Source: Cristatella mucedo | Taxonomy: Eukaryota > Bryozoa > Phylactolaemata > Cristatellidae | Assembly (NCBI GenBank): GCA_009760855.2 | Contig: WPIO01000122.1 | Span: 400,001 to 464,000 of the forward strand | Direction: 5' to 3' | DNA: 64,000 bases | In this document: in pieces, positions 175-50,489 of the stretch | Layout of the letters: each line of letters starts with the position of its first letter | Numbering within the stretch: the stretch's first letter is position 1 | Program-made: the position numbers and the translations under genes | Notes under the pieces: model-generated | Databases searched by the model: none | What the model was told of the DNA's origin: nothing | What the model saw: only the letters and a program-made list of their open reading frames with translations

Positions 175-306
175 CTCCTCTGGTGGAAGTTCGTGAAGCA
201 GCACGATGCAGCTCGCTTGACATTCGTACACCATCTGCCAGAAATCGTTCACTGTACTGGCCAGAGGCAGTTGAGTGGCAATAAAGCCTTTGTATGCATA
301 ACAGCC
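175..306 (-). CDS. RPTP exon: D2 DFWQMVYE (last exon in window)
   Basis: Acceptor CTTTCTTTAG|GGC, donor GAG|GTGGGT, phase 0-0, 44 codons. [20 protein letters not shown] is D2-like; Gly of TQGP is Leu. The rest of D2, the stop and the 3' UTR lie to the left of base 1. Confidence 0.93.

Positions 307-50489: not shown

Follow-up and report, generated by a model that had tools for sequence, protein, structure and literature searches.

A receptor tyrosine phosphatase gene with an F-type lectin ectodomain in the bryozoan Cristatella mucedo, and diversification of its first lectin exon among young copies

What does an animal gene encode when lectin exons and tyrosine phosphatase exons follow one another on the same strand, and what might such a protein do? 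The question is raised by a 64,000-nucleotide window of Cristatella mucedo (assembly GCA_009760855.2, 572 Mb searched; contig WPIO01000122.1, positions 400,001 to 464,000, here C25:400001-464000). The window carries an animal gene for a single-pass receptor protein tyrosine phosphatase (RPTP), with an F-type lectin ectodomain outside the cell and a protein tyrosine phosphatase (PTP) inside. Because the gene has many relatives in the genome, and because the first lectin exon diversifies within a young trio of ectodomain copies, we consider it probable, at roughly 60%, that the product is a diversifying recognition receptor (for self/non-self, microbe or partner cell) that signals through its phosphatase.

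The gene lies on the minus strand and runs from position 50489 to position 175 of the window in 21 exons of 37-369 bp, which give 960 open codons and agree in phase at 20 of 20 junctions. The model was made independently of the exon list of an earlier reading of the same letters (the original prediction), and it reproduced the ends, exon number and size range of the 21 phase-consistent exons proposed there. Homology, Cys pattern and splice sites defined 19 exons; the other two (35597-35515 and 25501-25452) are the top-scoring candidates in their gaps, with phases that fit both neighbors. One intron (after 7125) has a GC donor and all others have GT. The 3' end runs out of the window; four exons added from the flank bring the full model to 25 exons and 1123 aa, with a stop codon reached. 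The exons are listed below in transcript order (window coordinates unless stated; TM, transmembrane; JM, juxtamembrane; D1 and D2, the tandem PTP domains).

50364..50489, minus strand: EGFa exon, phase 1-1, with an EGF-like Cys pattern and no Pfam match; copies in B and C (see below)
48288..48536, minus strand: FTPa exon, phase 1-1, opens the F-type lectin domain and encodes its first half; Asn stands at the His position, and the nonsynonymous excess lies in this exon
42106..42354, minus strand: FTPb exon, phase 1-1, completes the F-type lectin domain with its second half
40116..40271, minus strand: EGFb exon, phase 1-1, Cys-rich with EGF-like spacing
37174..37542, minus strand: 369-bp exon, phase 1-1, a sequon-rich ectodomain stretch without known family
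35515..35597, minus strand: 83-bp exon, phase 1-0, a gap candidate; the paralogue has an exon of equal length and phase
33301..33520, minus strand: 220-bp exon, phase 0-1, FN3-like stretch, unproven
27345..27450, minus strand: TM exon, phase 1-2, acceptor uncertain
25452..25501, minus strand: RRRK exon, phase 2-1, basic stop-transfer stretch; outside the block common to copy B
23040..23161, minus strand: JM exon and start of D1
20049..20136, minus strand: D1 exon a (KNRFQNILP)
14553..14617, minus strand: D1 exon b
14390..14426, minus strand: D1 exon c, 37 bp
14190..14287, minus strand: D1 exon d
13437..13553, minus strand: D1 exon e (KKCEKYFP)
13180..13340, minus strand: D1 exon f, with the WPD loop as WRDQSVP and the end VIVHC
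9585..9720, minus strand: D1 exon g, P-loop (C)SAGVGRTG
7125..7268, minus strand: D1 exon h, GC donor
4550..4649, minus strand: D2 exon a
2646..2719, minus strand: D2 exon b
175..306, minus strand: D2 exon c; D2 continues past the window
C25:399544-399392, 399300-399149, 398900-398765 and 397125-397075 (stop), minus strand: four exons past the window, from fetched flanks

The TM exon (predicted to insert into the membrane), the RRRK stretch, D1 and D2 share one reading frame, which is the RPTP architecture. The 960-aa model matches PF00102 with an E-value of 3.3e-91, D1 alone with 1.9e-73 and D2 alone with 2.8e-43; the best PDB chains are LAR for D1 together with a portion of D2, and RPTP epsilon for D2. 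The characteristic D1 motifs of RPTPs are the HCxAGxGR P-loop, the WPD loop and the KNRY loop. Aligned with LAR, our D1 has the catalytic Cys and Arg of the P-loop, the Asp of the WPD loop (as WRDQSVP) and KNRF; D1 thus looks active, in agreement with the signaling role assigned to it by the original prediction. D2 has the P-loop QCRDGASHCG, without the P-loop Arg and without Asp at the WPD place, and to judge by these residues it is catalytically dead. D2 of CD45 probably has a similar degenerate loop. In the single paralogue for which D2 was read to this point the P-loop is QCREGSSHCG, and its D2 likewise does not look active. At positions 13290-13298 the WPD loop of the window gene reads WRD (Pro to Arg), while the paralogue has WPD (C25:338k). 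Searches of the GTDB genomes and IMG/VR with D1 returned no homologues.

The order of domains is EGF-like, F-type lectin, Cys-rich, unassigned stretches (the last of them FN3-like), TM, D1 and D2. In phmmer searches of PDB the lectin domain matched striped-bass FBP32 (5.3e-12), eel agglutinin (5.6e-6) and Sm-hPAF (6e-4). These matches, not Pfam, are the basis of the lectin assignment; the domain alone matched F5_F8_type_C_2 (8e-4) and F5_F8_type_C (0.011), both below the cut-off, and the prokaryote-oriented NCBIfam library gave no match to the lectin part. Because D1 matches PF00102 at 1.9e-73 and the lectin domain, which spans two exons, has its FBP32 match at 5e-12, the gene model cannot be attributed to chance, and the proposal of a two-domain RPTP with a fucolectin domain is upheld. 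Other elements of the proposed order fared less well. The EGF-like call reflects Cys spacing, with no Pfam family found for either Cys-rich exon. The FN3-like stretch had no Pfam match at E-values up to 10, and in the PDB just two matches came up within that limit, both to FN3 domains, at 0.15 and 0.22. Thus, of the two homologies by which the prediction had asked to be judged, fucolectin was found, whereas FN3 has no significant match. The ectodomain, which we read as glycosylated, is rich in sequons (18 in 489 residues, where shuffled sequences average 6.5 and 0 of 5000 reach 18), whereas the part after the TM has 4 in 604 residues against 3.3 by shuffling, and so no enrichment.

Matches to exons of this gene are numerous genome-wide: at least 136 for PF00102, at least 89 for a lectin-plus-EGFb query and at least 107 for D1. 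These counts, and the hit lists used below, are lower bounds. One paralogue, on the plus strand at C25:283-356k, has both lectin exons, EGFb, the large exon, TM, JM and most D1/D2 exons; it also has an 83-bp exon, phase 1 to 0, in place of 35597-35515, and a TM exon of phase 1-2. Its identity to the window gene is 51-76% over single D1 exons, 40% over a match that spans an intron, 40-58% over D2 pieces, 44-46% over FTPb, EGFb and FTPa, and 27% over the large exon. A paralogue with the same plan therefore gives independent support for the gene model. Among the matches listed, C25 holds at least 12 lectin cassettes (plus a lone EGFb match) and at least 6 D1 units.

Upstream of the window gene, the same strand carries the ectodomain block twice more: B at C25:511.0-532.5k, read to its TM over eight exons, and C, read over 600-610k only and four exons. 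Long aligned pieces of the window copy and B are 94-98% identical, with one end piece at 85%. This similarity ends near 426150 on our side, between the TM exon and RRRK, and only dispersed low-identity matches lie beyond. No frame break was seen in the eight exons of B. In C, EGFa (C25:609.6-609.7k) has a 2-bp gap relative to ours, in an exon of 126 bp that could be skipped in frame. A search of the minus strand over C25:460001-511000, which covers 50 kb below the TM exon of B, found no JM, D1 or D2 match above 27 bits. A high-scoring exon candidate with a YENV motif (C25:489195-489036, minus strand) lies between B and the window gene and could be the tail of copy B.

Within this young trio the FTPa exon has changed almost exclusively at nonsynonymous sites. 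The ratio of nonsynonymous to synonymous changes is 22:1 between the window copy and B, 19:0 between the window copy and C, and 10:1 between B and C. Over a somewhat shorter alignment the first of these pairs gave 20:1. Set against substitutions in the introns of the same 3.35-kb alignment, the 22, 19 and 10 changes at 189 nonsynonymous sites (intron rates 0.030, 0.032 and 0.009) are 3.9-fold, 3.2-fold and 6.0-fold excesses (one-sided Fisher p 3.3e-7, 2.7e-5 and 2.8e-5). In six other exons, pooled between the window copy and B without the 369-bp exon (which has a 3-bp gap), the count is 14 changes over 703 nonsynonymous sites (0.020), and FTPa differs from them with p 1.2e-7. The trio has 20 variable residues in FTPa, of which 13 fall in residues 32-52, a segment that includes the His position of the fucose motif (permutation p 0.0007). 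The most divergent 100-bp interval lies in FTPa when the window copy is compared with B (16 differences) or with C (12). The signal of diversifying selection on FTPa is therefore seen in these three copies only. This excess gives indirect support to the role in adhesion or immunity that had been suggested from the domain order.

Several points weigh against reading the gene as a diversifying recognition receptor. Inside FTPa a binomial test is weaker, with p 0.019 (window copy and B), 0.0065 (window copy and C) and 0.24 (B and C). Three sequences yield three non-independent pairs, and FTPa was picked for testing after its low identity had been seen. Another peak of divergence falls on a simple repeat within an intron (449351-449450), and between B and C this is the highest 100-bp interval (8/100, against 3, 5 and 4 in exon intervals). 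Other groups of copies have omega values of 0.64-0.93 (C13), 0.71 (C25 945k/1040k) and 0.34-0.53 (distant pairs); the group C219/C196/C217/C134 reaches 1.15-2.40, with one pair at 4:0, none of them significant. Outside FTPa, the divergence between the window copy and B is close to that of the introns, and therefore one of these two copies may be unconstrained. Copies B and C could also be artefacts of assembly or haplotype. The search for a 5' end gave no convincing signal-peptide or start exon within 40 kb upstream (none with strict thresholds, six weak candidates with relaxed ones).

The lectin itself supplies a further point of this kind. The fucose motif of F-type lectins is HX24RXDX4(R/K) (PMC5712786; this and the two other papers cited are drawn on from the portions consulted). 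Both Arg of this motif are present in the window copy, whereas its His is replaced by Asn and its Asp by Gly, so that the sugar binding assumed by the original prediction is not borne out by the motif of this copy. At the His position, His occurs in 17 of 23 FTPa copies read (of 26 matches listed; two of the 23 are identical), and the others have Asn (ours), Thr (3), Ile (1) and Arg (1). At the place of the cation motif h2DGx the window copy reads AVDG followed by Leu, where N, D or S is described in the consulted part of PMC5712786. On sequence grounds we file the gene as an RPTP that is new by its ectodomain; because the fucose motif is not intact, the window copy is not filed as a fucose-binding lectin.

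In the preferred reading, the gene would be expressed as a receptor whose lectin face binds a glycan or glycoprotein. Signaling would run from outside to inside: ligand binding would alter the clustering of D1 or access to it, altered D1 would set local tyrosine phosphorylation, and D2 would act as a scaffold. To our knowledge, many receptor phosphatases are without a known ligand; a diversifying lectin domain on an RPTP would offer both a ligand class and natural variants to test.

The alternative that survives best, to which we give about one chance in three, is that the copies without PTP exons serve as decoys or as paired receptors, or else are fragments in decay that stem from unequal crossing-over, and that the window gene is an ordinary RPTP with a single ectodomain. 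The 2-bp gap in EGFa of C and the intron-like divergence of the window copy and B outside FTPa are what such a history would leave. The FTPa excess is seen also between B and C, however (10:1, with introns at 0.9%), and this is unexpected under plain decay.

A different and rather unlikely arrangement is that the upstream blocks of ectodomain plus TM are alternative first parts that are spliced onto a single downstream PTP, from the phase-2 donor of a TM exon to the phase-2 acceptor of RRRK. The layout recalls that of the clustered protocadherins. It would agree with the end of the block shared with B between the TM exon and RRRK, with the intact frame of the B exons, and with the lack of JM, D1 and D2 matches above 27 bits in the interval searched below B. 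The contig-wide surplus of cassettes over D1 units points the same way: among the matches listed, the next same-strand feature downstream of the 12 cassettes on C25 is another cassette in 6 cases, a D1 unit in 5 and the contig end in 1. The argument draws on genomic layout and phases. On the other side, a splice from B would have to span about 86 kb, and one from C a longer stretch. Moreover, the hit lists are lower bounds, C was read without its TM and has the gap in EGFa, and the D1 unit at 1190-1201k has no listed lectin match upstream before the contig end. In the B region, a stretch with 67% identity reaches the edge of RRRK; we take it as a dispersed repeat. We therefore entertain only tentatively a variable/constant locus, in which tandem diversified lectin-plus-TM cassettes would share one downstream phosphatase by alternative splicing. 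If true, a single animal would possess receptors aimed at different targets that all feed into one inhibitory output, and the locus would amount to a recognition system in an invertebrate with dephosphorylation as its output.

Least probable is that gene conversion, with more distant cassettes as donors, produced the FTPa differences in place of locally selected substitutions: many related cassettes lie nearby, but the FTPa of the more distant copies measured has synonymous divergence (dS) of 0.53-0.82 and should have imported synonymous changes, of which 0 or 1 are seen, and the divergence of the window copy from both B and C peaks inside the exon.

RPTPs with EGF and fucolectin parts probably occur in molluscs as well. 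The diversifying recognition receptor can be compared with several described systems. The vertebrate two-domain RPTPs (LAR/sigma/delta, alpha/epsilon, CD45) resemble the window gene in having a TM, tandem PTP domains and an active D1. Their subgroups have ectodomains of Ig/FN3, MAM/Ig/FN3, FN3 only, short/disordered or carbonic-anhydrase (CAH) type, with no F-type lectin among those given in the consulted part of PMC10815196; none of the subgroup domains (Ig/FN3, MAM, CAH) was found in our ectodomain by Pfam, and with an ectodomain based on the F-type lectin the gene fits none of these subgroups. The sperm bindins of oyster are F-type lectins positively selected at the fucose pocket, a precedent for the selection pattern of FTPa. 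They also have retrotransposon and microsatellite sequence in the introns beside their lectin exons; unlike our gene, they are sperm acrosomal proteins, with no TM or phosphatase described in the portion of PMC5712786 consulted. Mosaic F-type lectins (Drosophila furrowed, sea urchin SpCRL and the Xenopus pentraxin fusion) likewise join the lectin to other domains, and the Drosophila one has a predicted TM, but the partners named in that part of the review are CCP, CTL, pentraxin and others (PMC5712786). The word 'phosphatase' occurs 0 times in the main text of this review. In Gigantopelta aegis, fucolectin, MEGF and PTPRK-labelled families are all expanded according to a figure legend in PMC7895826; these are three separate families, with no fused gene in the portion consulted. 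An F-type-lectin RPTP is not named in the literature surveyed, mostly at title and abstract level, which is weak evidence of absence.

Some details concern the extent of the gene model. Because the most 5' exon identified begins in phase 1, at least one exon before it is missing. A dispersed repeat's 3' end with an (ATT)n-type tail (48537-48720, minus strand) adjoins the FTPa acceptor, and this repeat end was also aligned from near 3.5, 12.2, 17.5, 28.4 and 50.9 kb. A signal peptide encoded by the repeat tail just 5' of FTPa was considered and judged unlikely: the ATG that would start it reads TTG in both B and C, and an ordinary acceptor is present at this place in ten further copies. The acceptor of the TM exon is ambiguous between 27465 and 27396 because of a 30-bp perfect tandem repeat in two copies at 27415-27474; copy B apparently has one copy of this repeat. 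An extra exon may lie between the FN3-like exon (33301) and the TM exon. A codon-usage test of coding was not discriminating, homology-proven exons included.

Elsewhere in the window, open reading frames at 58134-58739 and 60364-60807 (plus strand) and in repeats at other places look retroelement-like by eye. Seven repeat reading frames across the window gave no Pfam match at 0.01, and a repeat-derived peptide had none in IMG/VR. ARAGORN and Rfam (gathering thresholds) gave 0 matches. Outside the window, C398:2.32-2.87 Mb and C49:0.54-0.62 Mb have lectin and EGFb matches with no PTP among the matches listed there. As to kinase-bearing partners, PF07714 was absent among the matches listed for C25, C41, C13, C398 and C49 (141 of 606 candidates scored). 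Finally, identical FTPa exons lie near contig ends in opposite orientation at C25:34905-35180 and C41:5647-5922, which may mean that the contigs overlap or that the copy is very young; the FTPb matches beside them are 35% and 62% identical to ours, which argues against simple overlap.
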